Origin: Siphonobacter aquaeclarae
GTDB taxonomy: Bacteria; Bacteroidota; Bacteroidia; Cytophagales; Spirosomataceae
DNA: 64,000 bases
NCBI RefSeq assembly: GCF_900103285.1
Contig: NZ_FNGS01000001.1
Span: 861,515 to 925,514, forward strand
Direction: 5' to 3'
The number at the start of each line of letters is the position of its first letter. Within the stretch, counting starts at the first letter, position 1. The translations under genes were made by a program, and so were the position numbers. This document shows positions 1,472 to 37,878 of this stretch, piece after piece. The notes under the pieces are model-generated. The model was given only the letters and a program-made list of their open reading frames with translations, was not told the origin of the DNA and searched no databases.

Positions 1472-1591
1472 TTTAGAGTTTAGAGTTTAGAGTTTAGAGT
1501 TTAGAGTTTAGAGTTTAGAGTTTAGAGTTTAGAGTTGGACTGCCGTGTTGGGTGCGTTACCCCTAACTCTAAACCCTAAACTCCCAAACTC
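1472..1591. repeat. Intergenic repeat element A: nine TTTAGAG heptamers plus an inverted degenerate arm
   Basis: Bases 1472-1534 are nine perfect tandem copies of TTTAGAG. After a spacer of about 30 bases the complementary sense returns at 1564-1591 in degraded form (CTCTAAA, CCTAAACTC, CCAAACTC), so the whole can fold into a long imperfect hairpin. It lies between the converging DUF1080 and SusD genes and reaches the last bases of the SusD stop region. It resembles elements at 21332, 36142 and 37731 in architecture but not in arm sequence. Confidence 0.85.
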
Positions 1592-3302
1592 AATTATACC
1601 CCGGATTCTGCTCCAGTTTCGCAGAGACGTTCCGGTTGATTTCACTAAAAGGTATAGGCCAGAGGTTATGGTAGGATTCGATGGAGAGGCCGGATTTTTC
1701 GTTGTACTTCTTCACCCGGTCGTACAGTTTGCCCATCCGTGTGAGCGTCACCATGCGGAATTCTTCGCCGTAGAGTTCACGCATGCGCTCGTCGAGCAGG
1801 AAATCAATGCTGACGTCCCCTGCCGTGACAGGGAATGTTTTGGCCCGGGCCCGGACAACGTTGAGGTCGGCGGCGGCACTGGCATTATCGCCTTTCAGGA
1901 TCGCCGCCTCCGCCCGGAGAAAATAGGTCTCCGGCAGGCGGATCAGGTAACCGTCCCGGAAAAGATCGGAGGCATTGATCAGCAGGCGACCGCCCAGCGG
2001 CGACGTAAGGACATTCCCCGAAGCATCTTTTTGAAAATAGGCATCCGGGAAATCTCCGGCAGAAATCGTATTCTTCTTCAGGATCGGAAACCAGTTCCGG
2101 ATGGTATCGGCGAAGTTGGTGACTTTGGCCTGGTACCCGTCTTTCACAAACCATTTTCCGAAATCCGGCGAGGTGGACGCTACCCCATCGATCTGAAAAT
2201 CCCGCAGAATATTGTATGGAGAGTTCCGGATATCGTTTTTGCCGCCCTGCCACATGGTGTATAGGACGAAGGTCGTCGGCCGCATCCAGCCTACGCCGCG
2301 GCCCGACCATTTTTCGTTCGGCCCTTTGATGGCGCTGACGCTTTTGCCGTCTACCGCCGACTTGATCGTCAGGCTCTGCATCGACGGCATAATGGCCCAC
2401 TGCATGGCATCGCGCTGGGTAGACGCGAGGTTAAGATAATCGCTCTGAATGACATACAGCCCTTCCCGGTTACCACTCGTCCGGTTCTGATTCCCGAGCT
2501 CAAAGAGATCGCGGTATACGTCTCCCGGCTGATCCTTGTGCGTACCGAAGCGCTCGGTCATCAGCCCCACCCCGGGGTAGCTGATTACCTGCGTTGCGGC
2601 GGCAATGGCCTCGTCATAGGCTTTCAGGGAGATCAGTACTTCGGCCAGAATATGCTGCGCGGCCTGTTTGTTGACGGCCCCGTCTTTTGCCTTGTCAATA
2701 TCCGGAAGCACGGCAATGGCCTCGATCAGATCGGCTTTGCACTGCGCGTATACGGCGTCGCGGGCAGCGCGGACAAAATCGCGGCGCGGCGTCGTGATCT
2801 CGTCCGTAATCAGCGGCACGCCGCCGTACAGATTCGCCAGCATGTTGTAACCCCAGGCGCGGAAAAACTGGGCCTGCGCGCGGAAGAGCTTCTTATCTGC
2901 ATCGGTCAGTTTCGTCGATTTTGGTGCCCGGGCGATGACAACATTGGCGTTGCTGATGATCTGATAGACGTTTTGCCAGATGACAAGCGGCACGTTGAAC
3001 GTCGGCACCATCGTGTTTTTGTAGTCGTTGAGCTTCACCGCGGGCTGATAGTCCGTCGCATTGACGGCAAAATCCGTGGCATACCGCAGCGCAAAAAACG
3101 AGTCCAGGTCAATACCGCCGTACACAATGTTCCGGAGCCGATTGTGCAGAAAGTTGATCGCCGCCTGAAATTGCGCATTGGTTTCCAGCGAGTTATCCGG
3201 CGTATAGAAATCGAGGGGCTTTTCTTCAAGGAAGGTCTTCTCGTTGCAGGAGAAAGCCGTTCCGAGCAGGGCCACGAGGAGGAATCGCGTGATTTTTTTC
3301 AT
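1590..3302 (-). CDS. SusD/RagB-family outer-membrane glycan-binding lipoprotein
   Basis: This 570-residue protein has a lipoprotein leader (MKKITRFLLVALLGTAFSC) with the lipidated Cys at residue 19. SusD proteins sit on the outer face of the outer membrane, bind an oligosaccharide and lid the SusC channel. Family features include the tetratricopeptide-like N-terminal half (AQAQFFRAWGYNMLANLYGGVP) and the C-terminal LPETYFLRAEA and LLDERMRELYGEEFR motifs. It starts 4 bases after the SusC stop codon, so the pair is co-transcribed. No glycosidase lies directly beside it, so the ligand cannot be read from context. Confidence 0.95.
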   Translation of the reverse strand: MKKITRFLLVALLGTAFSCNEKTFLEEKPLDFYTPDNSLETNAQFQAAINFLHNRLRNIVYGGIDLDSFFALRYATDFAVNATDYQPAVKLNDYKNTMVPTFNVPLVIWQNVYQIISNANVVIARAPKSTKLTDADKKLFRAQAQFFRAWGYNMLANLYGGVPLITDEITTPRRDFVRAARDAVYAQCKADLIEAIAVLPDIDKAKDGAVNKQAAQHILAEVLISLKAYDEAIAAATQVISYPGVGLMTERFGTHKDQPGDVYRDLFELGNQNRTSGNREGLYVIQSDYLNLASTQRDAMQWAIMPSMQSLTIKSAVDGKSVSAIKGPNEKWSGRGVGWMRPTTFVLYTMWQGGKNDIRNSPYNILRDFQIDGVASTSPDFGKWFVKDGYQAKVTNFADTIRNWFPILKKNTISAGDFPDAYFQKDASGNVLTSPLGGRLLINASDLFRDGYLIRLPETYFLRAEAAILKGDNASAAADLNVVRARAKTFPVTAGDVSIDFLLDERMRELYGEEFRMVTLTRMGKLYDRVKKYNEKSGLSIESYHNLWPIPFSEINRNVSAKLEQNPGYN

Positions 3303-3306
3303 GGAC

Positions 3307-6300
3307 TTAGAATTCGATGTTCAGACCAACCGTGTAGTTACGCAGGAGAGGATAGGCGGCGCGGTCAAGACCGGTTCCGGTTTCGGGATCCCAGCCGTCC
3401 CAGTCGGTCAGGGTAAGCAGGTTTTTACCATTGAGGAATACCTTCGCCCGGTTAAACCGGATCTTCTGGAGCAGCTGCTTCGGCAGCGAGTACGCCAGCG
3501 TGACATTTTGCAGGCGAATGAAGCTCCGCTGCACGTAGGGAGAAAACGTCTCTCCCAGCGCAACGGTGTAGTAGCCGATTTGCCGGTAGCGGGCGTCCGG
3601 GTTTTCCGGCGTCCAATAGTCAAATTTGAAGATATTCCCGTTGCTGATATTGTCGGGATTGGGCAAGGTACTTCCGGGTTGACCATAGTACCATTTCTTC
3701 CCTCCCTGAATCGAATTGACAAAGAAACTCAGCTCCCAGGATTTGTACCGGAAGGTATTCATGATGCTGAAGCGGTAGGAAGGGTCGTTGTAGCCCAGGA
3801 TTTTGCGGTCAGCCGCAGCGGTATAGGCTCCGTCCTTGTTGATGTCTTCCACCTTGTAGGTTCCGTAGGTAAAGCCGGCGGGGATGGTCTTCGCCTCGTA
3901 ATCAGCTACCTGCCACATCCCGGTAATATTGAAATCATACGCAACGCCGTAGGGATGGCCGATGAAGATCTTGGAAGAAACCAGGTCATCCTCTTTGCCG
4001 TTCTTATCCGCGTCAATACCGAGAATACTGATGACTTTGTTGCGGTTCCGGGAGAAGTTCAGCGTCACGTCCCAGCTGAACGCACCCCGTTGTATCGGAC
4101 GACCGGTCAGGTTCAGCTCCTGCCCGTTGTTGCGAAGCTTGCCGATGTTGGCGGGACTGCTGCCAAAACCGTTGAGTACCGGCAGGTCTACGTTAAACAA
4201 CAGGTTATACGTATTGGAGACGTAGGTGTTGAAACTACCCGACAGCCGGTTCCGGAAGAGGACAAAGTCTACCCCGAAGTTGAGCGACCGCGTCGATTCC
4301 CATTTCAGGTTGCTGTTTGCCAGCGCGCTCATGTATTGCCCCTGCTGGGCAGCAGCGCCGTCGCCATAGAGGTAGCCGTTGCCTACGGATGCCGCAATTT
4401 TCGCCAGGGTCTGGTAGCGGCCGACGGTCCGGTTGCCGTTCACACCATACGACGCCCGGATCTTCAGGTCATCCAGAAACGGGACCTTATCCTTCAGGAA
4501 CTTCTCTTCGCTGAGCCACCACGCCGCGGCGATGGACGGAAACACGCCGAATTTATTGGAGGTACTAAACCCGGAGAACCCATCCCGGCGCACCGTTCCG
4601 GTCAGAATATACTTGTCGCGGAAGGAATAAATCACGCGGGCCATGGAGTACAGACTGGCTTCTTTCCAGGCAGACGACGTCGTGGTTTGCTGCCCGGCCT
4701 GCCCGGCGTCGAGCTTGTCGTACCCCAGGATGTCGTTCGCGAAGAAGGTCGCTTTGGCTGTGGTATTTTCATAGCTCCGTTTTTCGGCGCCGTACAGCAG
4801 CGTGGCGTTGACGGAGTGATCGCCGAAGGTCTTCTGGTAGCTCAGGATGTTGTCAAGCGTGAGCAGGTACTGCGAGCCGTTGAGCTTCGAGGCTTCTCCG
4901 TTGAAGTTCTGCGCATAAGGACTGAAGTTGTAGTTCCGGTCGGTGATGGAATTCTGAGAAAAGTTGAGCCGGTAGTTCAGTCCTTTCACAAACGGTACCT
5001 GGATATCGGCATACACGAGGCCGAACAGGTTGTTGCGCTTTTCGAGGTTGCTCCGGGTGATCTGCAAGAGGGGGTTGACGCGGGAGTTGTCCGGCATCCG
5101 GATCAGGTTGCCGTTCGCATCCTGGTACCCGAGCTGGGGAATCATGAACTGTACGTCGTCCAGACTGGGCGCGGCGCCGGAGTAATCGCTCACGCCGAGA
5201 AACGACTGTACGCCGAGCTTCATCCACGGAAGTACCTGCGTATCCAGGTTGATCCGCGCATTATACCGCTTGTAGGTATCATTTTTGACGACGTTCTGCT
5301 GATTCGTATACCCGAGGGAAACAAAGTACGAGCTGAGTTCGCTCCGCCCGCTGATGCTCAGATCGTGGTTCTGAATAGCCGGCGCGGAGTTGGTCAGCAA
5401 CTTCCACCAGTCGGTATTGGTCCCTTTCTGCATGCCTGCGAGTACTTCGGCGCTGACGTACTTGGTCACGTCGAAATCCGGGTTGGGCTGTAGCAATCCC
5501 GGGCCGGTACGGCTGAGGGCGAGGTAGCGGTCGGCTTTCTTTTTGAGAAAACCGGCGGCATCGTCGGGCAGCATCGACCGGTTGGTAATTTCCTGAACCG
5601 AGTACGATGTGCTGTATTCGATTGTCGGTTTTTTGAGGGCTTTTCCGGTTTTTGTCGTAATGATGATAACGCCGTTCGAAGCCTGCGAACCGTATACAGC
5701 GGCCGCGCTGGCGTCTTTCAGTACGTCGATGGAGGCGACATCATTCGGGTTGATATCCACCAGGCTTCCCCGGTAAATAATGCCGTCGAGTACGATGAGC
5801 GGGGCCGTACTGCCGTTGACCGACGTCCGGCCGCGAATCGAAATATCCGGGTCCTGCCCCGCCTGGGATACCGCGCCCACATTCAGGCCCGGTACCGAAC
5901 CCTGCAGCGATTGCAGGATACTCACATTCGGCGATTCTTTGAAGGCATTGATATCCGCCCTCGAAACCGCCCCGGTGATATCCCGCTTGCGGGCAGTACC
6001 GTAGCCTACAACCACCACTTCCTCGAGTGCTTTGACATCCGGCTTCAGGGCGAAGTCGATGCGGGTACGGCTGCCTACCTCCGTTTCCTGGGTAATGTAT
6101 CCGACCGAAGAAACCACGATTACCGTCGTTTCACCGGGTACGGAAAGCGCATAGTCGCCGGTCGCGCCGGTCACGGTACCGGTAGTAGTTCCTTTCACGA
6201 CGACGCTGGCGCCGGGCAGCCCCTCCCCTTTTTCGTTGGAGACTTTCCCGGTCAGGCGTATTTCCGCCGGCGTCTTCGGAGGCTCTTCGTCAGCCGCCGC

Positions 6301-6717
6301 CGGGCGGGCCGGTTTCACCAGAAAAATCAGCACAGTCCGCGCATTGACCTGCCGGTAGGACAAACGGGTATTCCGGAGCACCAGGTCAAGAGTTTCCTTG
6401 ACGCTCCGCCGCTCGGTTTCGAGGGTTACGTTCGGGTATGCCTCGACCTCATCCACCGGAATCACAAACGAAAAGGAGGATTTTTCTTCGATCTTCTTGA
6501 GGACCGTTTTCAGGCTTTCGTTCCGGAAGCCGATACGGATCATCTGATCGGATAATTCCTGGGAAATACCCGGATTGGCCAGCAGCAACTGCGCACTGGC
6601 GAAGGCCGCGAAGAAGTACAGCAGCCCCGCACGAAGAAAAAGACGCTTTCGGGAACGCTTCGGCCGGGCAATAGGCAGCCCTCCGGAACCCGTCGGTTCG
6701 GTAGAAAAGTGAAGCAT
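3307..6717 (-). CDS. SusC/RagA-family TonB-dependent outer-membrane transporter with N-terminal STN domain
   Basis: This 1136-residue protein has, in order, a leader with a long basic start (to about residue 55), an STN domain (about 60-130), a carboxypeptidase-D-like beta-sandwich (about 150-230, LTGKVSNEKGEGLPGASVVVKG), a plug (about 235-360, EEVVVVGYGTARKRDITGAV) and a 22-strand barrel ending NIEF. It imports a glycan or similar ligand using TonB energy. The STN domain is the part that talks to a FecR anti-sigma factor, and a FecR and ECF sigma gene lie just upstream, which supports trans-envelope self-induction. A 749-codon open frame on the opposite strand (3244-5493) is taken as a shadow. 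Confidence 0.96.
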   Translation of the reverse strand: MLHFSTEPTGSGGLPIARPKRSRKRLFLRAGLLYFFAAFASAQLLLANPGISQELSDQMIRIGFRNESLKTVLKKIEEKSSFSFVIPVDEVEAYPNVTLETERRSVKETLDLVLRNTRLSYRQVNARTVLIFLVKPARPAAADEEPPKTPAEIRLTGKVSNEKGEGLPGASVVVKGTTTGTVTGATGDYALSVPGETTVIVVSSVGYITQETEVGSRTRIDFALKPDVKALEEVVVVGYGTARKRDITGAVSRADINAFKESPNVSILQSLQGSVPGLNVGAVSQAGQDPDISIRGRTSVNGSTAPLIVLDGIIYRGSLVDINPNDVASIDVLKDASAAAVYGSQASNGVIIITTKTGKALKKPTIEYSTSYSVQEITNRSMLPDDAAGFLKKKADRYLALSRTGPGLLQPNPDFDVTKYVSAEVLAGMQKGTNTDWWKLLTNSAPAIQNHDLSISGRSELSSYFVSLGYTNQQNVVKNDTYKRYNARINLDTQVLPWMKLGVQSFLGVSDYSGAAPSLDDVQFMIPQLGYQDANGNLIRMPDNSRVNPLLQITRSNLEKRNNLFGLVYADIQVPFVKGLNYRLNFSQNSITDRNYNFSPYAQNFNGEASKLNGSQYLLTLDNILSYQKTFGDHSVNATLLYGAEKRSYENTTAKATFFANDILGYDKLDAGQAGQQTTTSSAWKEASLYSMARVIYSFRDKYILTGTVRRDGFSGFSTSNKFGVFPSIAAAWWLSEEKFLKDKVPFLDDLKIRASYGVNGNRTVGRYQTLAKIAASVGNGYLYGDGAAAQQGQYMSALANSNLKWESTRSLNFGVDFVLFRNRLSGSFNTYVSNTYNLLFNVDLPVLNGFGSSPANIGKLRNNGQELNLTGRPIQRGAFSWDVTLNFSRNRNKVISILGIDADKNGKEDDLVSSKIFIGHPYGVAYDFNITGMWQVADYEAKTIPAGFTYGTYKVEDINKDGAYTAAADRKILGYNDPSYRFSIMNTFRYKSWELSFFVNSIQGGKKWYYGQPGSTLPNPDNISNGNIFKFDYWTPENPDARYRQIGYYTVALGETFSPYVQRSFIRLQNVTLAYSLPKQLLQKIRFNRAKVFLNGKNLLTLTDWDGWDPETGTGLDRAAYPLLRNYTVGLNIEF

Positions 6718-13290: not shown

Positions 13291-13297
13291 ATGAAGT

Positions 13298-19900: not shown

Positions 19901-20017
19901 GGCGGTCTGACGTTCGCCGGCTTGCTTACCCTGTACGTCATCCCGGCGATCTACTCGTATTTCTCCCGCACTTCTTCCCATAAGAAAAAGCCGGAGCCAG
20001 AACTTGCAACTGTATGA
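16943..20017 (+). CDS. RND multidrug efflux pump, inner-membrane permease (AcrB/HAE1 family)
   Basis: This 1024-residue, twelve-helix proton antiporter starts SGLSIQRPVLAGVLSVLIVLFG, the standard first helix. It contains the TM4 proton-relay motif with adjacent acidic residues (LALVLAIGLVVDDAIVVLENI), two large periplasmic loops and the second repeat (LIYLVLAAQFESLIDPLIIL, GLITKNGILIVEFAN). Length and motifs match the hydrophobe/amphiphile efflux class rather than the CusA metal class; the exact substrates cannot be told. Its last codons overlap the start of the TolC gene by 4 bases (ATGA), so translation is coupled. Confidence 0.95.
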   Translation: MSLSGLSIQRPVLAGVLSVLIVLFGMVGLTYLGIREYPVTDSPIVTVTTSYPGASPDVIAYQITKPLEEAIGEANGIRTISSVSREAASVITVEFNLDADLEAAANDVRDKVTKARRLLPADVDPPIVEKANSGDIVIFMAVESKTRSILEVSNLASTVIKERMQTIPGVKRVGIAGEKKYAMRLRIDPAKLAAYQLTPADIEQALRRENVDLPSGRVEGDRNELTVRTLGRLTKEDDFNNMIIKQEGESIIRFRDLGYAELGAENERTAILNSLKGNSATIGVFVEPQRGANAVAIADEFYKRLQELRKEIPKEYELTIGKDFTEPIRASISEVEETLFIAFGLVILILFIFLRDWRSTIIPVVAIPVSIISAFFIMYFAGYSINILTLLALVLAIGLVVDDAIVVLENIYAKVEEGMSPLEAAFKGSSEIYFAVISTTITLAAVFLPILFLPGITGKLFQEFAVVVAGSVLVSAFVALTLSPMMSAYLLKHQDQPNWLYRKTEPFFVRLNKGYERSLAWFLRYRWLAFPALAVNIGLIYVIGKQLPSELAPLEDRSQISLAVLAPEGSSYEYTEKYMNEIAKFTVDSTPGLFQSYSILALTFGPPAPVNLAIQNVFLTKPGERKTTQADVFNIYSRNTQQFRGVLAFPVQPPTIGSRFGQAQPVQFVLQATQLAELTKVLPKFIEEARKSEVLRFVDSDLKVNKPELVLQINRDKAAELGISTAEIARSLQLALSGQRYGYFIYNDRQYEVIGQLQRDDRSTPYDLKSMFVRTRTGEMVSIDNLVSFRESISPAAIYRYDQAISATVSGGLAPGKTIGDGIAEMQRIAAKVLPPAIKTSLAGESRDFAESSSSLLFAFVFALVLIYLVLAAQFESLIDPLIILLTVPMAMTGALLSLWLFGQTLNIFSQIGIITLIGLITKNGILIVEFANQSKEEGLKPLEAARVAAASRFRPILMTSLAMIFGAIPIALTVNSRSSLGTVIVGGLTFAGLLTLYVIPAIYSYFSRTSSHKKKPEPELATV

Positions 20018-21327
20018 AAACCATCCTTTCCCTTTTAATCCTTTTCGTGGCTTTTTCCGAGGCTGGCGCCCAGCGCCGCCTCGCGCTGAGCGACGCGGAA
20101 TCCCTGGCGATAGACAAAAACCGGGATCTGCAGGTTGCCCGCCTGGAAGCAGCCAAAACCGATCAGCAGGTTCGGGAAGCCAAAGGCTATGCGCTCCCGC
20201 TCATCGCCGGATCGGCACAGTATCAGTATTATCCGTTACGACAGGTGTCTTTTCTTCCCGGAAGTTTTGTAGGACTTGGCGATGATCAGCTGGCAACGTT
20301 CCGCGTGGGCGGTTCCAGCGCCTTTCTGGGCGGTGTCACCATCAGCCAGCCGCTGCTCCAGCCCGGTATCAAAGCAGGGATACGTGCGGCCGGTCTGGCG
20401 CGGGATATCAGCGATCAGGCCATTTCCGAAACCCGCGCCCGGGTCGTAACCGACGTGCGCAAAGCCTACCTGCTTGTATTGATCACGCAGGAACAGCTTC
20501 GCCTGCAACAGCAGAGTATCCAGCGGAACGAACAGGCGCTGAAAGACGCCCGCGCGCTTCTGGCGCAGGGCCGCGCCTCCCGCGTGGATACCCTGCGGGC
20601 GTATGTGACGATTGAAAATCTCCGGCCGGCGGTCATCCGGCTGACCAATGAGGTGGATATCGCCGGAACGGTTCTGAAGCGCGTAATCGGTCTGGACGAC
20701 AGCGATGTACTCGATCTGACCGACTCCCTGCGTTATGAGGAAAATCCGATCGAGGAAGCCGATTTTTACAGCCAGGCTATCCAGTCCCGACCGGAAATTC
20801 ACAGGCTGGAACTAACCGAAAAGCTCAATCAGGCGCAGGTAAGTATCCGGGAGGCCGACCGGCGGCCCAAGCTCTCTGCCGTCGGACTGGTGCAGTCACA
20901 GGCACAAACCAACCGGTTTCAGTGGAATAGCTGGCCGGTGAGTTCCTTCGTCGGACTGCAACTGAATGTGCCTATTTTCTCTGGATTCCAACAGTTGGCG
21001 CGGATATCACAAGCGGAAATTACCCGTCAGCAGACCGCTACCCAACTCGCCAACCTGAAGGAAATTGTCCGGGCGGAAGTGAAGATTGCCCGGTCGAAAG
21101 CCGAAGAAGCACGCCTCCGCATCCGGACTCAGGCGCAGACCGTATCGGTGGCAGAGCTGGGCTACCGCATCACACGGGACCGGTTCCGGCAGGGTATTGC
21201 CTCCCGGCTGGACGTCACCGACGCTGAACTTTCCCTGACACAGGCCCGGGCCAACTACCTCCAGGCTGTGCATGATTTTCTGAACGCAACCTACGAACTG
21301 GACCGGGCAACCGGTCGGGTGAAGTAG
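20014..21327 (+). CDS. TolC-family outer-membrane efflux channel
   Basis: This 437-residue protein has a signal peptide (to about residue 20, LFVAFSEAGAQ) and two long alpha-helical repeats of the outer-membrane efflux protein family, the second ending in SRLDVTDAELSLTQARANYLQAVHDFLNATYELDRATG. Trimers form the channel that completes the adaptor-pump-channel system encoded just upstream. The start overlaps the pump stop by 4 bases. The stop codon lies 7 bases before repeat element B. Confidence 0.95.
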   Translation: MKTILSLLILFVAFSEAGAQRRLALSDAESLAIDKNRDLQVARLEAAKTDQQVREAKGYALPLIAGSAQYQYYPLRQVSFLPGSFVGLGDDQLATFRVGGSSAFLGGVTISQPLLQPGIKAGIRAAGLARDISDQAISETRARVVTDVRKAYLLVLITQEQLRLQQQSIQRNEQALKDARALLAQGRASRVDTLRAYVTIENLRPAVIRLTNEVDIAGTVLKRVIGLDDSDVLDLTDSLRYEENPIEEADFYSQAIQSRPEIHRLELTEKLNQAQVSIREADRRPKLSAVGLVQSQAQTNRFQWNSWPVSSFVGLQLNVPIFSGFQQLARISQAEITRQQTATQLANLKEIVRAEVKIARSKAEEARLRIRTQAQTVSVAELGYRITRDRFRQGIASRLDVTDAELSLTQARANYLQAVHDFLNATYELDRATGRVK

Positions 21328-21331: not shown

Positions 21332-21475
21332 GGGCATGGGGCAGAGGGCATGGGGTGGCGGAAGCGTCCTACTGTGCCCTCTGTCTATTCCGCATATGTA
21401 TCAGCCACATAGGCAGTAACCTCGCAGAGAGTACGGGTGGCGAAAGCGCCGCCCCATGCCCTCTGCCCCATGCCC
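21332..21475. repeat. Intergenic repeat element B: 29-base inverted arms of GGGCATGGGGCAGA-type repeats
   Basis: Left arm 21332-21360 and right arm 21447-21475 are reverse complements with one mismatch in 29 bases. Within each arm the unit GGGCATGGGG occurs twice. The central 86 bases are unique, but GGGTGGCGRAAGCG occurs in direct orientation at both inner edges (21354 and 21435 onwards). The element fills the gap between the converging tolC and fucosidase genes, and the last base of the right arm is the last base of the fucosidase stop codon. Confidence 0.9.
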
Positions 21476-22947
21476 TATTTCCCCTGCCCGAACACCCCTA
21501 CCCCCGCCAGCGTCGGCTGGAGGCGGGATGAAAGAATCCGAAGCCGGATTTTGCGCGCCGTAACGGCCGGGAAACGGAGCAGGCGCTTGTACCCTACTGT
21601 TGTGCCTTTCGTTACTTCTTTCCACTCCGTCCCTTCCTGAACTTCCAGGACAAACTCCTCTATGCGCTGACCGACCCGGATATTCTCCTGAAGCGACAGT
21701 ACATCAAACGTTTGCGGGGATTTCAGGTCAAATTCCAGGGTTGCAGTAGTATCACTGCCCATCCAGTAGGTATCGTATTTACCGTCCGTGAGTCTGGGGT
21801 AGGCGGATGCTTTTTTCAGGATATTGTCCTTGAAAATACCGTCGCGCATGGTTTTCCACCCCTGCAAACTGCGGACGTCTGCGTCGGCCAGCAGGCCCCG
21901 GCGATCCGGCGGGATATTCAGCAACAGCACGCCGTTTTTACCGACGGAGTGAAAGTAGATATCCGTCAGTTTTTCAGGCGTTTTGACTTTGTCGTCTTCC
22001 GTTGCGTGGTAAAACCACCCGGGACGGATGGAAACGTCCGTTTCGGCGGGATACCAGGCCAGGCCTCTGGCTTTCGCGATAGCTGCCCGGCCGCCGAGGT
22101 CGCCCTTGTTGACATACCCGGCAGGTTTGACGAGCAGGTCTTTCTGGGAATTGGCGGCGACGGCATCCTGATCGAGATTATTGGCCGGAACAACACTCCA
22201 TTCCGTTTCCCGGCCATACCCTGTTTCCGTACCCACCCAGCGTACATCGGGACCCATGATGGCGATCACCGCTTCCGGCTGGAGTTTCCGGATGAGTTTA
22301 TACCAGCGGGGAAAATCATATACCTGTTTTTTTCCGTTGGGACCTTCGCCGTTGGCTCCGTCAAACCAGACTTCATCTACTTTGCCGTAATGCGTCAATA
22401 ATTCGGTTAACTGATTGACGAAGAGATCGTTATACGCATCGGTACCATAAACCGGTGCATTGCGGTCCCACGGAGAAAGGTATACGCCGAAGCCGATGCC
22501 GTATTCGCGGCAGGCGTCAGCGACCTCTTTCACCACATCTCCCTTTCCGGCTTTCCAGGGACTGTTTTTGACCGAGTGACCGGTCGTGGCCGTTGGCCAG
22601 AGGCAAAAGCCGTCGTGGTGCTTCGCCGTGAGGATGACCTGGCGGATACCTGCCTCCTTGCAGGTGCGCACCCATTGGCGGGCGTCGAGTGCAGTCGGGT
22701 TGAAAATGGACGGACTTTCTGTACCGTCGCCCCACTCCCGATCGGTGAAGGTATTGACGCCGAAGTGAAAGAATGCCGTCAGTTCGAGCTGCTGCCAGCG
22801 GAACTGCCGGGGAGTCGGGGTAACCGTCGCTGCTTTGCGGATCAGGTCGGGGTCGTTGGGCAGCAGCGAGACAAAATGGTGTTGCGCTGCTATGGGAAGC
22901 AGACCACTTGCACAGAGAAGGGCTCCGGTCAGGAAGCGTCGATTCAT
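21475..22947 (-). CDS. Alpha-L-fucosidase, GH29 family, secreted
   Basis: This 490-residue protein has a signal peptide (to about residue 21, ASGLLPIAAQ) and the GH29 barrel: FHFGVNTFTDREWGDG, VILTAKHHDGFCLWPT, IGFGVYLSPWDRN, and VDEVWFDGANGEG, where Asp196 sits at the position of the family nucleophile. A C-terminal beta-sandwich (about 350-490, STTATLEFDLKSPQTFDVLSLQENI) is discoidin-like. It should remove terminal L-fucose from glycans in the periplasm or outside. It has no operon partner: a divergent gene lies upstream and element B lies at its 3' end. Confidence 0.92.
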   Translation of the reverse strand: MNRRFLTGALLCASGLLPIAAQHHFVSLLPNDPDLIRKAATVTPTPRQFRWQQLELTAFFHFGVNTFTDREWGDGTESPSIFNPTALDARQWVRTCKEAGIRQVILTAKHHDGFCLWPTATTGHSVKNSPWKAGKGDVVKEVADACREYGIGFGVYLSPWDRNAPVYGTDAYNDLFVNQLTELLTHYGKVDEVWFDGANGEGPNGKKQVYDFPRWYKLIRKLQPEAVIAIMGPDVRWVGTETGYGRETEWSVVPANNLDQDAVAANSQKDLLVKPAGYVNKGDLGGRAAIAKARGLAWYPAETDVSIRPGWFYHATEDDKVKTPEKLTDIYFHSVGKNGVLLLNIPPDRRGLLADADVRSLQGWKTMRDGIFKDNILKKASAYPRLTDGKYDTYWMGSDTTATLEFDLKSPQTFDVLSLQENIRVGQRIEEFVLEVQEGTEWKEVTKGTTVGYKRLLRFPAVTARKIRLRILSSRLQPTLAGVGVFGQGK

Positions 22948-23184: not shown

Positions 23185-24306
23185 ATGAAATACCGCCTTA
23201 CTTACCTTATGGTGTCGCTACTGGGCACCACAACGGCTTTTGCCCAACAAAATGTTGGTATAAACACCACTACTCCCGATGCATCCGCCGCGCTCGACGT
23301 CACCAGCACCAACAAAGGAGTACTCGTTCCCCGGATGAATCAGTCGCAACGAACCGGAATTTCCAACCCGGCCACGGGCCTGCTGATCTGGCAGACAGAT
23401 GGAACGTCCGGCTTTTATTATAATGCCGGAACGCCGGCTTCGCCAAGCTGGATTCAATTGGGCGCAACGGGACCCGTCGGGCCTGCGGGGCCGGTCGGAC
23501 CGGTCGGACCCGTAGGTCCGACGGGCGCTACCGGACCACAGGGGGCTACCGGGCCGACCGGCGCAACAGGTCCGCAAGGCGCCACCGGACCAGCAGGCGC
23601 CGGCTTCGCCAATGGTACGACCGGCGGGCAGGTGTACCTGACGGGCTCCGTTGCTCCCTATGCGCCGCAAGTCCCTCAGACGGTCACGGGCGACGTAACG
23701 CTCACCAGTTCAGCCGTGACGACCATCGCCACCAATGCAGTCACCACCGGTAAAATCGCCAATAATGCGGTGACGGTTGGAAAAATCTCGGCGACCGGAA
23801 CAGCCGACGGCTCCTCTTTTCTCCGCGGTGACGGTGTCTGGGCTTCAGCGGGCGGCGGATCATCCCTTTTTGCGAACCGGACGTCGGACGCGACCGTCTC
23901 CGTTTCCTCACCCACCTATGTGGATGTTGTCAGTATTTCGCTCGAAGCCAATAAGAAATACCTGATCCGCGGAAAGACGATTGCCGCCAAAACCGGTGCG
24001 ACCAATGCCAACGTCACCTTCCGGCTGACCTACACCGGCAGCGCGACATCGCTAACGGGCGGGGTTTTCTATTCAAGCAGCCTCCTTCCGGGCTCGGCGT
24101 TCAGCAGTTCCTCGTTTGACACGGAAACTGCCGGTTTCGGACTGACGGCTACGCTGACACCCGGGCCGAAGTATGAAATTGAAGCGGTCATATCCACTAC
24201 TTCTGCCGGAACCCTGACGGTCCAGACGGCACGTGCAACGACCAATACCACTAACGACTTTTCTATCAAATCAGGAAGTTATCTCGTCGCAAGCCCGATT
24301 CAGTAG
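23185..24306 (+). CDS. Secreted collagen-like (Gly-X-Y) surface protein, copy 1
   Basis: This 373-residue protein has a signal peptide (AFAQQ cleavage near residue 21) and a conserved Bacteroidota head (about 22-93, [50 protein letters not shown]). A collagen-like stretch of about 15 Gly-X-Y triplets follows (about 94-140, [11 protein letters not shown]...), then a tail-fibre-like segment ([31 protein letters not shown]) and a C-terminal beta-domain. Such proteins form trimeric surface fibres; the function here is unknown. The 24498 gene is a paralogue with an almost identical head. Each copy has its own terminator, so they are separate transcripts. Confidence 0.8.
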
Positions 24307-32122: not shown

Positions 32123-32844
32123 GGAAGGGTTTTGAGCGGAAGGCGGCGGTCGTGGTAAAACAGGAACGTCCAGCCTTCCGCCTGTTCTTTCCATTCCCGG
32201 CGGTTATCGCGGGCTTTCTTTCCGTCGAAATCATTGCGGTATGCGGAGTGCTGGTCGAGGTATACGGCCATCGGAATTTCATCGGCTCCGTAAAAAATCA
32301 CTTCTCCGTCTTCCTCCAGCCGGATGGTCTGGTGAAACGGCGTGTGCCCGCCGCTGACGGCATAGGTGATTCCATCGGCGATTTCGCCTGTGTCGTCGTC
32401 CAGCCATACCCGGTTTGGCAGCGACGCGAGCGCCAGCAATGTCGGTTCGTGGTAGGAAGGATTTCCGGTCTGCGCCTGCGCGTAAAGCCACTCCCGACGC
32501 TGGAGGTAGTGTTTGGCGCGGGGAAAGAGCGGGTGGAAGTGGCCGTCGTCCCACATGCCGAGGCCGCCGGTATGGTCCTTGTGCAGGTGTGAAAGAATAA
32601 CCCGGGTCACATCTTCCGGACGGATACCCGCTTCTTCAAGCAGGCCGAGAATAGCCGGCATGCCGTTGGATGCGGTTCCCAGTCCTGTATCCAGCAATAC
32701 ACAATCATTGCGCATCCGGATCAGAAACGGACGTATGGCGAGCAGGGTAGTTCCCGGTATCCTCGGCATCCCGGAGATAAACGGTACAAAACGTTTGACA
32801 GAATCGACAACAAAAAGGCCCTCGGTTAGGGGAAGAATAGTCAT
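32119..32844 (-). CDS. MBL-fold metallo-hydrolase (lactonase-like)
   Basis: This 241-residue protein carries the metallo-beta-lactamase metal motif HLHKDH (His86, His88, Asp90, His91) inside VILSHLHKDHTGGLG, with SGGHTPFHQTIRL and GADEIP supplying the later ligands. No signal peptide is visible, so it is cytoplasmic. Relatives hydrolyse lactones, thioesters or similar esters; the substrate is unknown. Its start overlaps the stop of the upstream MFS gene by 4 bases, so the two are co-translated, and the divergent LysR gene likely controls both. A transporter plus hydrolase pair suggests uptake or export of a small ester or lactone. Confidence 0.87.
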   Translation of the reverse strand: MTILPLTEGLFVVDSVKRFVPFISGMPRIPGTTLLAIRPFLIRMRNDCVLLDTGLGTASNGMPAILGLLEEAGIRPEDVTRVILSHLHKDHTGGLGMWDDGHFHPLFPRAKHYLQRREWLYAQAQTGNPSYHEPTLLALASLPNRVWLDDDTGEIADGITYAVSGGHTPFHQTIRLEEDGEVIFYGADEIPMAVYLDQHSAYRNDFDGKKARDNRREWKEQAEGWTFLFYHDRRLPLKTLP

Positions 32845-34028
32845 ATAGCTGCGACCGGTTCGGGGTGCCGCATGCGCAGGCGAACACCGATAGTAGTTCC
32901 AATGTTGAGCAGCGCGAGGGCCGTCAGGGTACCCAACAGGCCGGTGGCCCCAAAATGTTCCATCAGGTATCCTCCGGCAAGCGGCGTTGCCGCCTGCGCG
33001 ATGAGCGCCGGCCGGGCCAACCGGCCTAATACCATCGGATAGTTCTCAGGACCAAACAGTTCGAGCGGCAGCGTTCCTTTCAGCACGGACCGCATGCCGT
33101 TTCCGAGGGCGTATAAAATAACGGCGAGGGAGGCTACAGATGGCCCCATTTCCAGTAAAAGCAGTCCCAGAAAAGTGAGGATAACCGAGACGAAGGTTGT
33201 CCAGATCGGGTGTTTTTTCGGTGCGAGGACATCGAGAAACCGCACGCCTACCTGACACGGACCGATCAGCGCGCCGATGCCGATGGCGGTATGCAGCGAC
33301 ATGCCTTTTGATTGCAGGATTTGCAGGAGCTGCACGGTCACTGCCGTCAGAATAATAGCCGCAAGGGTAAAATTGACGGCGAGCAGGTTCAGAAGCGAGT
33401 CGCTTATCGGAAGTGATGAAGCGGCAGAACGCATTGTGGCTGCCGGTACAGGCGTCTCTTCCTCCGGCAAACCGAAGCGATACAGTAGCCAGATACTTGT
33501 AAAGAGAATCACGGCATATCCCAGGCAGGCCCCGCGCCAGCCCCAGGCGGTAAGCATAGCGCCGAGAAGGGGCCATACAATCGTCGTACAAAATCCGGAA
33601 ATCAGGGTGACCGTCGTGATCGATTTGCGGGCCTGCGCTCCCTGAAATTTACCCAATACGGCAAACAGGGCATCATACAACCCCATTGCCATACCCACGC
33701 CGATGACGCACCAGCCGAACAGGAAAACGGGCAGCGAGGGAGAGATCGCCAGGATCACAAGCCCTGCGCCGAGTACAAAACCGGCATACAGAAGCGGCTT
33801 CCGGGCGTCGTGCCCGCCGATGTACCGGCCTACTGCCGGAGCGAGGCAACCCGAGATCAGCAATCCGGGAGACAGCGCGCCGAGTACCCATTGCCTCGGC
33901 CAGCCGGTATCCTGCACAATGGGATCGGCGAGGACTGCCAGCAGGAAGAAAGAACCGCCCCAGCTCAGTAGTTGTGCCAGGCCCAAAAAGCTGCTGATTC
34001 GCAGGGAAGAAAGCATTTTCGTCATCAT
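32841..34028 (-). CDS. Major facilitator superfamily transporter
   Basis: This 395-residue protein has about twelve hydrophobic segments in two halves (SFLGLAQLLSWGGSFFLLAVLADPI at the start, LLGTLTALALLNIGTTIGV at the end). The loop after helix 2 has the GRYIGGHDARKPLL pattern of MFS proteins. It resembles the small-molecule or drug MFS group rather than sugar symporters. Two adjacent starts (34028 and 34025) are possible. The gene overlaps the MBL hydrolase by 4 bases and is divergent from the LysR regulator across 95 bases. Confidence 0.88.
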   Translation of the reverse strand: MMTKMLSSLRISSFLGLAQLLSWGGSFFLLAVLADPIVQDTGWPRQWVLGALSPGLLISGCLAPAVGRYIGGHDARKPLLYAGFVLGAGLVILAISPSLPVFLFGWCVIGVGMAMGLYDALFAVLGKFQGAQARKSITTVTLISGFCTTIVWPLLGAMLTAWGWRGACLGYAVILFTSIWLLYRFGLPEEETPVPAATMRSAASSLPISDSLLNLLAVNFTLAAIILTAVTVQLLQILQSKGMSLHTAIGIGALIGPCQVGVRFLDVLAPKKHPIWTTFVSVILTFLGLLLLEMGPSVASLAVILYALGNGMRSVLKGTLPLELFGPENYPMVLGRLARPALIAQAATPLAGGYLMEHFGATGLLGTLTALALLNIGTTIGVRLRMRHPEPVAAI

Positions 34029-34106
34029 TGCAAACTTTTCCGCTTTGCCGATGCAAAAGTAGAGTGGCCTTCTAAATTTGTAAAAAGGTATTTTTCTATC
34101 AGAATG

Positions 34107-34121
34107 ATCGATATTACCGAT
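34107..34121. promoter_or_regulatory. Candidate LysR-type binding site (T-N11-A dyad)
   Basis: ATCGATATTACCGAT has near-symmetrical arms and the T-N11-A spacing typical of LysR sites. It ends 2 bases before the lysR start and lies in the divergent promoter region of the MFS-MBL operon. Confidence 0.45.
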
Positions 34122-34123
34122 TA

Positions 34124-35002
34124 ATGGAACTCCGACAACTTCGCTATTTTCTGAAAGCGGGTGAACTGCTGCACTTCACCCGGGCAGCGGAAGCCGTCAA
34201 TATCAGCCAGAGTACCCTCTCGCAGCAGATCCGGCAACTGGAAGACGAGCTGGGGACTCCTCTCTTCGACCGAATTGGCAAACGCGTATTGCTGACGGAA
34301 GCAGGAACGCGGTTTCTGGTATATGCCCGGCAGACCGTCGCCAGCGCCGACAGTGGCCTGGAGATTCTCCGGGATCTCGCCGGTCTGGAGACGGGCGATC
34401 TCCGCATCGGCGTTACGTATACCCTGCGCACGCTGCTGACGCCGGCGCTGGTCGCCTTCTCGACTGCCTTTCCCGGTGTGTATATCCATATCTTGTTTGC
34501 GACGTCGGAGGAGCTGGCGGAAAAACTGCTGGCGGCGGAGATCGACCTGGCACTGAGTTTCCGGGAAGGAGGCATCCGGGACGACTCGTTCGACAGCGAG
34601 CCGCTTTTCGAGTCCCGCATGGCGCTGATCGCCGCCGAAAGTACGGAGTGGACCGACCGGCAGCAGGTAACGCTGCCAGAGATCGGCCGACTGCCGCTGG
34701 TACTGCCCGTTCGCGGCTACAGTACCCGGCAGTTTCTGGACCAGGCATTTGCCGAAGCGGACGTTCGCCCGAATATCCGGATGGAACTGAATGATATTCC
34801 CACTTTGCTCGACCTTGTCCGGACGGGGCACTGGCATACCATTCTGTCGATGGCGACGGTCACCGGGCAGTCAGGATTAACCGCTATTCCGATTGAAGGA
34901 GCAGGTATGAACCGGCAGGCGTCGCTGGTGTGGCTCCGTTCGGCCTACCGGAAAAAAGCGGCGCTGCGGTTGTCTGAACTACTGACCGGGCCGCATGTCT
35001 GA
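34124..35002 (+). CDS. LysR-family transcriptional regulator
   Basis: This 292-residue protein has the LysR winged helix at residues 1-60 (LRQLRYFLKAGELLHFTRAAEAVNISQ, STLSQQIRQLEDELGTPLFDR) and a periplasmic-binding-protein-like effector domain (about 88-290, GDLRIGVTYTLRTLLTPALVAF). It is of the CynR/CbbR type. It is divergent from the MFS-MBL operon, the classical arrangement for control by a small effector. A dyad directly before its start suggests autoregulation. Confidence 0.93.
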   Translation: MELRQLRYFLKAGELLHFTRAAEAVNISQSTLSQQIRQLEDELGTPLFDRIGKRVLLTEAGTRFLVYARQTVASADSGLEILRDLAGLETGDLRIGVTYTLRTLLTPALVAFSTAFPGVYIHILFATSEELAEKLLAAEIDLALSFREGGIRDDSFDSEPLFESRMALIAAESTEWTDRQQVTLPEIGRLPLVLPVRGYSTRQFLDQAFAEADVRPNIRMELNDIPTLLDLVRTGHWHTILSMATVTGQSGLTAIPIEGAGMNRQASLVWLRSAYRKKAALRLSELLTGPHV

Positions 35003-35085
35003 AAGAGATATATTCTTGTTCTGCCACAAAAGCTCTCCACCTCTCTCCCATCCCGTAAAATTTTCCTTAAATAGGGTAAATAAAA

Positions 35086-35128
35086 TTGCGAATATAAAAT
35101 TGGCGCTATATTTACGGGTACGTACCCG
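35086..35128 (+). promoter_or_regulatory. Promoter with perfect LacI-family operator, site 2
   Basis: TTG (35086-35088), an 18-base spacer and TATATTTA (35107-35114) form a Bacteroidota promoter. The next 14 bases (35115-35128) are the perfect palindrome CGGGTACGTACCCG, placed on the expected transcription start. A bound repressor would block the downstream oxidoreductase gene at 35184. Confidence 0.6.
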
Positions 35129-35183
35129 GTGATCGTAATACCATGACAATCAAAGCCGGAGCTAACCTGCCTCTTTACCAAAA

Positions 35184-36149
35184 ATGAACCTTTCCAGCGA
35201 CCGCCGCTCCTTCCTCAAAAAAGCCACGATGGGTGGCCTTGCCCTGACGTTCTTCCCGGCCTTCGAAGGCAAGCGGGTAGGCATCATCGGGCTGGATACC
35301 TCTCACAGCCTGGCCTTTACCAAGGTACTCAACGCGCCGGATGCCCCGGCCGTCTATGCAGGGTATAAGGTTACTGCGGCCTATCCGTATGGAAGCCGGG
35401 ACATCGAAAGCAGTGCGAAGCGCATTCCCGGATACACGGAAGACGTGAAAAAGCTGGGTGTTGAAATCGTCGATTCGATTGCGGACCTGCTCCGGAAGGT
35501 AGATGTTGTATTGCTGGAAACGAACGACGGCCGCCTGCACCTGGAGCAGGCCCTTCAGGTACTGAAAGCCGGTAAGCGGGTGTTTATCGACAAGCCGGTT
35601 GCGGCTTCGCTGAAAGACGCCATCGCTATCTACCAGGCTTCGGAAAAGTACCGTATTCCGGTGTTCTCGGCGTCGTCGCTCCGGTACATCAAAGGCATCG
35701 AAAATATCGACAAAGCCAGTGTCACGGGAGCGGATACCTTCAGTCCGGCTGTCTATGAAAAAACACACCCGGATCTGTTCTGGTATGGCGTTCATGGAGT
35801 TGAAACGCTGTTTGCGGTGATGGGAACCGGTTGCCGGGAAGTCGTACGCGTGCATACGGAAACGACGGACATCGTCATCGGTACCTGGGAAGACGGCCGC
35901 ATCGGTACGTTTCGCGGTACGCGCACCGGCCTACACGACTACGGCGGTACGGTGTATATGAAGCAAAAAAACCAGGTTCTCGGCCCCTATGCCGGCTACG
36001 AACCGCTTCTGAAAGATATCATCCGGTACTTCGAAACCGGCGAGGTGCCGGTAACCCCGAAGGAAACACTCGAAATTTTCGCCTTTATGGAAGCCGCCGA
36101 CGAAAGCAAACGGCAGGGCGGTAAGGCGGTAGCTTTGAAAAAGCTATAG
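35184..36149 (+). CDS. Tat-exported Gfo/Idh/MocA-like oxidoreductase (short form)
   Basis: This 321-residue protein has a twin-arginine leader (DRRSFLKKATMGGLALTFF) and a Rossmann fold in which the usual GxGxxG is altered (VGIIGLDTSHSLAFTKVL). It has the VFIDKPVAASL lysine motif and a shortened C-terminal domain (WYGVHGVETLFAVMGTGCREV). The GLDTSHS variant defines a subgroup common in Bacteroidota and Planctomycetes whose reaction is not established. It lies directly behind the palindromic operator at 35115. Its stop codon falls in the first bases of repeat element C. Confidence 0.85.
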   Translation: MNLSSDRRSFLKKATMGGLALTFFPAFEGKRVGIIGLDTSHSLAFTKVLNAPDAPAVYAGYKVTAAYPYGSRDIESSAKRIPGYTEDVKKLGVEIVDSIADLLRKVDVVLLETNDGRLHLEQALQVLKAGKRVFIDKPVAASLKDAIAIYQASEKYRIPVFSASSLRYIKGIENIDKASVTGADTFSPAVYEKTHPDLFWYGVHGVETLFAVMGTGCREVVRVHTETTDIVIGTWEDGRIGTFRGTRTGLHDYGGTVYMKQKNQVLGPYAGYEPLLKDIIRYFETGEVPVTPKETLEIFAFMEAADESKRQGGKAVALKKL

Positions 36150-36333
36150 GCTGTAGGCTTTATGCTGTAGGCTGTTACCTTGCCAGTTTGTCGTAAGCTA
36201 TTTTGGATACATGTCGCCAAAGCATATTATAATGCCTTAAGCTATAGGCTTTATGCTGTAGGCTACTGGTGTTAACCTTGTAACATGTCATAAACAATAT
36301 ACGGATACCTCTCGCCAGAGCTTATTGCTTAAA
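36142..36333. repeat. Intergenic repeat element C: two diverged copies of a stem-core-stem unit
   Basis: Copy 1 (about 36142-36238) and copy 2 (about 36239-36333) both open with an arm built on CTATAGGC...TTTATGCTGTAGGCT. Each continues with a GTTA(A)CCTTG segment, a core with GGATAC-N3-TCGCC, and an end rich in AGCATA/GCTTAAGC that partly complements the arm. The copies are clearly related yet much diverged, so the duplication is old or the unit changes fast. The element lies between two co-directional oxidoreductase genes and includes the stop codon of the first. Confidence 0.8.
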
Positions 36334-36365
36334 GCTTGCCGCCTGAGCTCAAATCCCCTCCCCTC

Positions 36366-37712
36366 ATGAACCCAAACACCCGCAGAGATTTTCTCCGCAA
36401 AACCCTGACAGGCGCGACTGCGTTGTCGGTCGGCGGGATCCTTCCCGGATTTTCCCCGAAAAGCTATGCCCGCATTTCGGGCGCAAATGAACGGATCGCC
36501 GTGGGCGTGATGGGCGTCAACAGCCGCGGACTGGCCCTGGCGTCGAACTTTGCCCTGCAGCCCAACTGCGAGGTACGGGCGATCTCCGACGTGGATTCCC
36601 GGTCGCAGGAAAAATGCATAGCCGCCGTCGAAAAAATACAGAACCGGAAACCAGCCGGTCAGCCGGATTTCCGGAAAGTACTGGAAGACAAGGACATCGA
36701 CGCGATGGTAATCGCCACGCCCGACCACTGGCATGCCCCGGCGGCTATTCTTGCCTCCAAAGCCGGCAAACACGTCTACCTGGAAAAACCCTGCAGCCAT
36801 AATCCGCATGAAGGCGAATTGCTGGTGGCCATCCAGAGGAAGTACAAAAACGTGATTCAGATGGGCAATCAGCGGCGCTCCTGGCCGAACGTTGCCGCCG
36901 GGATCAAAGAACTGAAAGACGGGATCATCGGCCGGGCCTATTTCGCCAAAGGCTGGTATACGAATAACCGGGAATCAATTGGAAAAGGAAAAGTCATTTC
37001 CGTCCCTTCCTGGCTCGACTATGAACTCTGGCAGGGACCGGCGCCGCGGCGGCCCCTCAAGGATAACCTCATCCACTACAACTGGCACTGGTTCTGGCAC
37101 TGGGGCACAGGCGAAGCGCTCAACAACGGCACCCATATGCTGGATCTCATGCGCTGGGGACTGGGCGTGGACTATCCGACACGCGTCACTTCCACCGGTG
37201 GGCGCTACCGCTATCAGGACGACTGGGAAACGCCTGATACCCAGGTAATATCCCTTGAATTTGCCAACAATACCGGCATGACCTGGGAAGGCCGCAGCTG
37301 CAACGGCCGGACCGTTGAGGGGTCGAGCGTAGGAGTGATTTTCTATGGAGAAAACGGCTCCCTCCTGCTCGACGGCGGCAACTCCTACAAGGTTTTCGAC
37401 CTCAATAACAAAGTCGTCAAAGACGTCAAAAATGACCTCGTCATCGACCCCCGGAACAAAATGAACCCGTCGCAAGCCCTGGATGCCATACACATCCAAA
37501 ACCTTTTCGACGGGATCAAAAAGGGTACAACTCTGAGTTCCGATATCCTCAGCGGGCACCAGAGTACGCTGCTTTGCCAGTTGGGCAACATTGCCCTGCG
37601 CTCCGGTGGCGTCCTCGACATCGACCCCAAAAACGGCCACATCAAAAACAACCCCCAGGCTCAGAAACTGTGGAAACGGGAGTATGAGAGGGGGTGGGAG
37701 CCGACGATCTAG
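36366..37712 (+). CDS. Tat-exported Gfo/Idh/MocA-family sugar oxidoreductase
   Basis: The start at 36366 (448 residues) is preferred over 36336 because it puts the twin-arginine motif (NPNTRRDFLRKTLTGATAL) at the N-terminus. The Rossmann domain reads IAVGVMGVNSRGLALASNF. The catalytic region has TPDHWHAPAAILASKAGKHVYLEKPCSHN. The substrate domain shows WHWFWHWGTGEALNNGTHMLDLMRW, a Trp/His-rich stretch typical of the periplasmic subgroup. It shares domain order with the 29088 protein. Repeat elements flank it on both sides (C before, D after), so it is probably its own transcription unit. Confidence 0.9.
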   Translation: MNPNTRRDFLRKTLTGATALSVGGILPGFSPKSYARISGANERIAVGVMGVNSRGLALASNFALQPNCEVRAISDVDSRSQEKCIAAVEKIQNRKPAGQPDFRKVLEDKDIDAMVIATPDHWHAPAAILASKAGKHVYLEKPCSHNPHEGELLVAIQRKYKNVIQMGNQRRSWPNVAAGIKELKDGIIGRAYFAKGWYTNNRESIGKGKVISVPSWLDYELWQGPAPRRPLKDNLIHYNWHWFWHWGTGEALNNGTHMLDLMRWGLGVDYPTRVTSTGGRYRYQDDWETPDTQVISLEFANNTGMTWEGRSCNGRTVEGSSVGVIFYGENGSLLLDGGNSYKVFDLNNKVVKDVKNDLVIDPRNKMNPSQALDAIHIQNLFDGIKKGTTLSSDILSGHQSTLLCQLGNIALRSGGVLDIDPKNGHIKNNPQAQKLWKREYERGWEPTI

Positions 37713-37730
37713 TCCGCCCATCTGTCGGCT

Positions 37731-37878
37731 GTTTTCAGTTTTCAGTTTTTGGTTTTCAGTTTGATGGTAAGCGTATTTGGCGATGACAAGGCACGTTCGA
37801 AGTCACGCTCCGGTGCATCGGATATCGCCCGGTTGTCAAACTGAAAACCAAAAACTGTAAACCGAAAACTGTAAACCA
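37731..37878. repeat. Intergenic repeat element D: inverted arms of TTTTCAG-type repeats
   Basis: Left arm 37731-37764 is made of degenerate GTTTTCAG/GTTTTTGG units and right arm 37836-37878 is its complement. The inner 22 bases (37743-37764 against 37836-37857) match perfectly, and the outer parts match in register with substitutions. The central 71 bases contain GGATATCGCC near the right arm and TTTGGCGATGAC near the left, motifs close to those in the core of element C. Confidence 0.88.

Follow-up and report, generated by a model that had tools for sequence, protein, structure and literature searches.

Many-copied fold-back repeats built of short tandem units in the intergenic spacers of Siphonobacter aquaeclarae

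Results

The window analyzed in this study is a stretch of 64,000 nucleotides (nt) (G000:C14:861515-925514) of the draft genome of Siphonobacter aquaeclarae, which comprises 6.19 Mb in 19 contigs and is 98.74% complete. Four of its intergenic spacers, referred to here as elements A to D, had been described in a first-pass annotation of the letters as having one plan in common, with an arm of short repeats, a center and an arm complementary to the first, and their sequence and coordinates were as given there (Table 1). The plan was supported for element A (1471-1591; fold z -4.45), element B (21332-21475; z -8.54) and element D (37731-37876; z -5.99), each of which folded better than all 200 shuffles, but not for element C (36142-36336), the fold of which was not above shuffles (z -1.14, with 32 of 200 shuffles as good). 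When 36130-36340 was scanned for repeats, a 42-nt direct repeat with a spacing of 98 nt and an identity of 74% was detected, and no inverted pair. Element C looks like an RGCnnTA-type array that was duplicated in tandem at a spacing of 98 nt and has since decayed, and the two centers ascribed to it, being copies of one another, are for that reason alike. The statement that the arm units differ completely was correct among the four elements but misleading, as each unit represents a family elsewhere in the genome, namely GTTTAGR for A, GGGCAnn for B, RGCnnTA for C and GTTTnnn for D.

The fold-back census covered 2.064 Mb of the genome with 1129 spacers of at least 30 nt and used a detector that reports one best fold-back per spacer, drops spacers with N runs and has score and periodicity thresholds set by eye. 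As a result, periodic fold-backs were found in 73 of the 1129 spacers compared with 0 after shuffling, for which each spacer was shuffled once (shuffles of spacers, like those of loops below, preserve single-base composition only), and the idea that other such spacers exist was thereby substantiated. Several of the stretches (C6, C11, C12:200001-220000, C7:800001-820000 and parts of C8 and C13) were selected because repeats were present, so that the element density is not to be extrapolated to the genome, and gene calls came from a crude open reading frame (ORF) script, which makes part of the gene ends, spacers and orientations wrong. Both arms had a period of 7 in 44 and of 9 in 29 of the 73 fold-backs, which a rough classification divided into 29 TCTGTGnnn, 18 GTTTnnn, 13 RGCnnTA, 8 GTTTAGR, 4 GGGCAnn and 1 other; element C was outside this set. 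Arrays of GTTTAGA, with one mismatch allowed, were present at about ten other places in the genome. These elements are genuine, occur in many copies and have been little described; they form a class of dispersed fold-back repeats to which A, B and D belong, together with C as an apparently decayed member.

The ratio of >< to <> polarity among array pairs was 27:5 in the 9-mer family, 37:0 in GTTT, 22:1 in RGCnnTA and 9:0 in GGGCAnn, and the left arm was the richer in G+T in 67 of the 73 periodic fold-backs compared with 9 of 38 other fold-backs. This G+T polarity was not general, being reversed at three loci of other Bacteroidota (L244, L250 and L255). Three of eight <> 9-mer pairs (104009, 189066 and 148703) were junctions of adjoining elements, and two diverged 9-mer element copies in the <> arrangement were also seen on either side of an assembly N run (G000:C7:349637-350155). 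Five perfect arrays of 9-11 units were one-sided, with 2-5 units in the opposite arm.

The arms were compared in register over 1.664 Mb, using array pairs with loops of up to 250 nt that were picked by the constant part of the unit, not by pairing. The variable parts were compared between arms counting outward from the loop, and the null was obtained by shuffling partners within the family. The variable parts of TCTGTGnnn were identical in register in 44 of 52 comparisons (null 0.26), which 0 of 5000 shuffles reached. GTTTnnn alone matched in 34 of 95 (null 0.22; 1/5000 shuffles), RGCnnTA in 13 of 65 (null 0.10; 27/5000) and GGGCAnn in 8 of 15 (null 0.24; 29/5000). The earlier description of arms that vary yet stay self-complementary is supported for these four families but not for GTTTAGR, the family of element A. 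When all GTTT arrays were pooled, the match by position outward from the loop was 21/37, 13/37, 7/27, 5/17 and 0/2.

In the 9-mer family, 27 elements carried 14 combinations of left-arm units, 10 of which occur with an exactly matching right arm, and 27 of the 38 array pairs with two units in each arm matched throughout, three of the other 11 being junctions of neighboring elements. Furthermore, 28 unit comparisons were made between 9-mer copies with similar loops: in 10, both arms had changed and the units paired in each of the two copies; in 5, the change was confined to one arm; in 1, both arms had changed but one copy was unpaired; and 12 showed no change. The firmer of these double changes are those of 606632/359994 and 367533 and of 345559/16474. 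Some 9-mer loops match as reverse complements, and whole copies may lie either way.

The partly shared core proposed in the first-pass annotation was not borne out. The motif [TG]GGCGA-N0..10-TATCC is present in the window at 36219, 36317 and 37830 (minus strand), and it was found in only 1 of the 73 periodic fold-back loops, that of element D. Of its 41 sites in the 2.064 Mb, 37 touch called genes and 4 are intergenic, 3 of which are the window's own, and a reversed control pattern gave 14 sites, 1 of them intergenic. The core-like bases assigned to element B beside its arm (TGGCG) pair within the stem. A shared conserved core was rejected on the basis of the single loop among 73 and of sites lying mostly within called genes. 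No 7-mer was commoner in the 44 heptad-element loops than in shuffled ones (top count 4, compared with 3-4 in 20 shuffles). Loops ranged from 7 to 234 nt in length, some containing a terminator or another palindrome family, and similar loops were seen only in the 9-mer family TCTGTGnnn, in which they are short and AT-rich. A known Rfam family was likewise rejected, as 0 families matched at the gathering score in the window and 6 further 20-kb stretches. As a separate observation, a long palindrome, CCGGTGGTTGAGCTACGTCGAAACC or a near form, and its complement lie within heptad fold-back loops of three families, as if nested (Table 1).

With respect to genes, 40 of the 73 element spacers lie between convergent genes compared with 206 of the 1056 others (p 1.6e-10), and 2 lie between divergent genes compared with 261 of the 1056 (p 1e-6). 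Selection against promoter disturbance would explain the scarcity of divergent sites. The median distance from an arm was 6 nt to a stop codon (n=111) and 42 nt to a start codon (n=35), and both arms were within 15 nt of both stop codons in 20 of the 40 convergent element spacers. Net of the element, convergent spacers had a median length of 21 nt, compared with 93 nt for those free of elements (p 6e-12); the elements tend to constitute the spacer rather than to add to it. A T-run directly after the stem was found at only 5 of 146 arm ends, by which a standard intrinsic terminator was rejected.

Five congeners (G001-G005) were compared, among which G001 and G004 form a near pair. Congener genes are only about 70% identical in DNA and the spacers are not alignable to base level; the protein encoded between elements C and D has best named matches of 78-80% identity (Rhabdobacter, Spirosoma, Larkinella, Telluribacter and others) and only 41-43% identity to G001-G005. 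One orthologous heptad element was found in the 57 spacers common to G001 and G004. Its arms are mostly kept, its loop is mostly different, and one C-G to T-A paired change was seen by eye.

In contig C12, at about 220-341 kb, ten own elements were examined against the congeners. Both neighbors occur together in at least one congener for five of them (224404, 228119, near 248 kb, 272476 and 318605), and in the congener spacers examined a same-family element was found for 0 of these 5 (272476 via DNA matches). The own element at 224404 faces one of a different family in G003. The element at 228119 has the stop codon on one side and a terminator-like hairpin on the other, and two congeners have that hairpin without the element; at 272476, a 9-mer locus, the own genome lacks a terminator-like hairpin that is present in three congeners (by eye). 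One orthologous spacer that has no element in the own genome carries a GTTTAGG-type element in G001, a GGTTnTT type in G003 and a degraded one in G002 (Table 1).

The TCTGTGnnn pattern has 206 matches in the own genome and was found in 0 of 5 congeners and 1 of 33 other relatives, and the GTTTnnn pattern was present in 5 of 5 congeners and in 10 of 39 genomes in all. Among 395 sampled genomes of the phylum, the own included, TCTGTGnnn was found in 13, and some of these loci are fold-backs with other bases and opposite polarity. A heptad fold-back was seen in 2 of 80 named loci, belonging to Spirosoma luteum and a Dyadobacter. Loci of other Bacteroidota (L244, L250, L254, L255, L260 and L192) have fold-backs of 9-nt units with the cores CACAGAGnn, CGCAAAGnn and CACGAAG/CACAAAG. 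The fold-back architecture is thus wider than the TCTGTGnnn family, as other 9-nt cores, several of them oppositely polarized, exist elsewhere in Bacteroidota.

Among candidate agents, Y1_Tnp had one match in the genome, at L186 (G000:C18, around 329412-329756), other transposases not having been searched for. The gene is flanked by a different palindrome family, GACCCCGAAGGGGTC/CCCGGG, and no heptad arms were seen by eye in the 3.3 kb of L186. It was rejected as the agent of the heptad and 9-mer arms because it adjoins these palindromes, and the earlier remark that ordinary REP insertion is a poor fit was upheld, the sole RAYT-like gene of the genome lying beside another repeat. The Y1_Tnp gene and the GACCCCGAAGGGGTC/CCCGGG family are likely to be a REPIN/RAYT pair separate from the heptad elements. 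Palindromes of the form GACCCCGAAGGGGTC ... CCCGGG were also noted at C7:780007, C8:185720 and C8:394631. No RVT_1 domain was detected at E <= 0.001 in the genome (98.74% complete), and the identical search was positive in 3 of 14 control genomes. Synthesis by a reverse transcriptase was therefore rejected as far as Pfam reaches.

Table 1. Coordinates of elements A to D in the window and of related loci
Feature	Position	Strand	Remark
Terminator-like palindrome (A-run/hairpin/T-run)	1410..1448	.	Between ORF 330-1394 and element A; by eye
Element A left arm, GTTTAGA x9.4, perfect array	1471..1536	+	TRF
Element A loop	1537..1564	.	
Element A right arm, AACTCTAAACCCTAAAC + imperfect units	1565..1591	+	Reaches end of convergent ORF 1590-3302 (-)
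Element B left arm, GGGCATG GGGCAGA GGGCATG GGG	21332..21355	+	Begins 5 nt after ORF 20014-21327
Element B loop	21356..21451	.	Terminal bases TGGCG...CGCC lengthen stem; fold z -8.54
Element B right arm, full complement of left	21452..21475	+	Reaches end of convergent ORF 21475-22947 (-)
Element C array, RGCnnTA-type, putative copy 1 of 98-nt duplication	36142..36182	+	
Element C array, putative copy 2, 74% identical	36239..36280	+	Repeat scan
Element C short right-hand array GCTTATTGCTTAAAGCT, weak partner arm	36320..36336	+	z -1.14, not above shuffles
Element D left arm, GTTTTCA GTTTTCA GTTTTTG GTTTTCA GTT	37731..37761	+	19 nt after ORF ending 37712
Element D loop, carries motif GGGCGATATCC (minus strand)	37762..37838	.	
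Element D right arm, AACTGAAAACCAAAAACTGTAAACCGAAAACTGTAAAC	37839..37876	+	Fold z -5.99
Orthologous spacer with differing families	G001 C1:763360-763498; G003 C5 near 316799; G002 C28 near 140300		
Nested CCGGTGGTTGAGCTACGTCGAAACC-type palindrome loci, own genome	C8:388976, C13:25061, C13:28606, C8:107550		

Elsewhere in the window, at 23491-23601 inside ORF 23185-24306, repeats like GGCGCCACCGGACCAGCA suggest a possible collagen-like Gly-X-Y tract (TRF).

Discussion

We consider it slightly short of an even chance (a probability of roughly 0.47) that the elements are dispersed repeats in 3' spacers, of which the arms have grown by slippage and the complementarity is kept by template switching during replication. 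Since the arms of most families match letter by letter and the middles are unshared, a conserved core is a poorer guess than the copying of one arm from the other at replication. Arrays would grow and shrink via replication slippage, which would fit one-armed perfect arrays such as that of element A (9 units). While the DNA is single-stranded in the course of replication, the two arms might pair into a hairpin, and the polymerase may then switch template between them (quasipalindrome correction), rewriting the units of one arm to match those of the other, with the consequence that the arms would covary while the loops drift. Copies may persist where their harm is small or where they are useful as 3'-end stem-loops. 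Slippage and template switching could in this manner explain the one-sided perfect arrays, the match that decays outward, the unit-sized double changes and the drifting loops, and could yield covariation without a new synthetic system. That template switching homogenizes the arms of inverted repeats and makes multibase compensatory changes is stated in the abstracts of two reports (PMC8604942, PMC8794818); their subjects are RNA genes and coding DNA of yeast rather than dispersed arrays of heptads.

Several observations weigh against this explanation. The GTTTAGR arms showed no match beyond the consensus (12/25; null 0.40; 837/5000 shuffles reaching it) and give slippage and template switching no support, and the value for GTTTAGR and GTTTnnn pooled (46/120; null 0.16) is inflated because two consensus types are mixed. 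The 10 double changes of the 9-mer family come from overlapping copy pairs, the short AT-rich loops of which may resemble each other by chance, and the pair 349649/350067 is altered in both arms, yet one copy is imperfect. Because the copying of whole elements passes on paired arms, in-register identity does not count events. Stretches of the congeners contained only 6 GTTT pairs, with 7 of 15 units matching (null 0.27; fraction of shuffles reaching this, 0.54). The detector found no element in the 43 syntenic spacers of G003 versus G002 or in the 17 of G005 versus both, where the pairing script misses cases, as some elements were seen in those stretches. Finally, template switching leaves unexplained both the dispersal to scores of places and the preference for stop codons.

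Selection on RNA 3'-end stems is a possible but on balance unlikely explanation, in which a convergent spacer would yield, on either strand, a hairpin just after the stop codon, often of 20-30+ pairs, that would block exonucleases or aid termination, with selection keeping the pairs. The elements hug stop codons, are biased to convergent genes and make up nearly all of the spacers that contain them, and at 272476 the terminator-like hairpin of three congeners is missing from the own genome (by eye). Canonical terminators were present in 11 of 39 element-bearing compared with 83 of 201 element-free convergent spacers of up to 400 nt, which points the same way, although the difference was not significant (p 0.15). 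The T-run at only 5 of 146 arm ends is against such a role, as are the intact terminator-like hairpins beside or around some elements (A, 228106 and 818589) and the absence of a same-family element from the comparable congener spacers examined for all five own elements. The first-pass annotation had suggested that the arms are maintained as RNA stems; this is possible, but the sole test of it lends no support, as the ratio of G.U to A.C mismatches, 35:23 in tandem spacers (transcribed strand) and 34:22 in convergent ones, was not strand-specific (p 0.15). The scattered 9-mer copies with similar loops, the 206 TCTGTGnnn matches here against 0 in the five congeners, the orthologous congener spacers without an element and the fixed arm polarity (27:5, 37:0, 22:1 and 9:0) would suit non-autonomous mobile repeats of a MITE- or REPIN-like kind, with a transposase acting in trans that recognizes the arms. 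We regard this as unlikely, given that the sole Y1_Tnp match adjoins a different palindrome family and that loops and outer units differ much inside the heptad families; target duplication was not seen either, though the congeners are too diverged to reveal one.

It would also be conceivable, although we hold it to be quite doubtful, that the elements are self-homogenizing fold-backs that are rewritten unit by unit via hairpin-templated replication and replace ordinary terminator-bearing spacers as compact two-way 3' ends of convergent genes, with lineages carrying different unit alphabets because it is the architecture that is copied and kept rather than the sequence. It is improbable that the arrays are paired sites at which a DNA-binding protein recognizes the unit cores. 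Each unit does consist of a constant core and variable bases, the arrays are paired and oppositely oriented, a precedent appears in passages of a Geobacter report (PMC2700814), and GTTTAGR fits equally, having only the consensus common to its arms. However, binding needs no match of variable bases and four families show one, four or five cores would require several proteins, and the divergent, promoter-bearing spacers are avoided. Hardly credible is RNA-templated repeat synthesis of a retron-, DRT- or telomerase-like kind, which the first-pass annotation had suggested as one of two possibilities. The telomere-like tandem units in opposed arms recall such a system, but no reverse transcriptase candidate was found at the RVT_1 threshold given above, in a search that was positive in 3 of 14 control genomes, and many unit families would demand many templates.

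Paired changes in stems may be products of selection on RNA structure or of the way in which mutations themselves arise, and which of the two applies is a long-standing question. The genome studied here contains scores of natural stems with a known register, in most of which the variable bases match between arms, as well as a 9-mer family so far found in one species of its genus, and it gives a warning that covariation alone is no proof of a functional RNA.

Paired arrays of heptamers or octamers have been published for Xanthomonas and Geobacter, and TAACTGA arrays for a few Bacteroidetes, and the class is therefore known in outline. In the open-licence literature, no account was found of a genome that has several unit families and arms matching base by base, nor were the exact units found. 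REPINs and RAYTs (PMC3116915) concern extragenic inverted doublets with a spacer that form hairpins in many copies, and the present elements share the inverted hairpin doublet and the many extragenic copies (73 spacers in 2.064 Mb). In REPs, the palindromic unit is conserved and linked to a RAYT gene, whereas the arms described here consist of degenerate tandem repeats and a different family adjoins the RAYT-like gene. Intergenic heptamers are also described for Beggiatoaceae, cyanobacteria and five Bacteroidetes, in which TAACTGA is repeated directly (PMC4679880), some of the Bacteroidetes arrays being missing from close relatives. In the main genome, most of these direct arrays immediately precede start codons, and one indirect repeat was reported, in contrast to the opposed arms found here.

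The "predicted global regulator binding sites" of Geobacter metallireducens (PMC2700814) comprise classes 1-3 with the units GTTGCTYN, TCTCCGTS[Y] and MTYCTGA, occurring as opposite-strand pairs at variable distance (24 pairs, 21 places and 8 pairs). Tandem units of 7-8 nt paired on opposite strands at variable distance are common to both, loops here being 7 to 234 nt. The Geobacter units and phylum are different, and the sites are read as those of a hypothesized regulator, whereas the elements described here are tied to stop codons and convergent genes; the passages on the Geobacter arrays are silent on arm covariation. The GGGAATC heptamers of Xanthomonas (PMC4692102) are mostly intergenic, form 70 and 75 convergent array pairs in two genomes as potential stem-loops, and lie nearer the 5' neighboring ORF, at an average of 28 nt. 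Two tandem heptamer arrays in convergent orientation are common to that type and to ours. Xanthomonas has a single G-rich, quadruplex-forming unit, whereas several families, mostly not G-rich and commonly paired, are present here, and the variable bases of four of the five families match in register.

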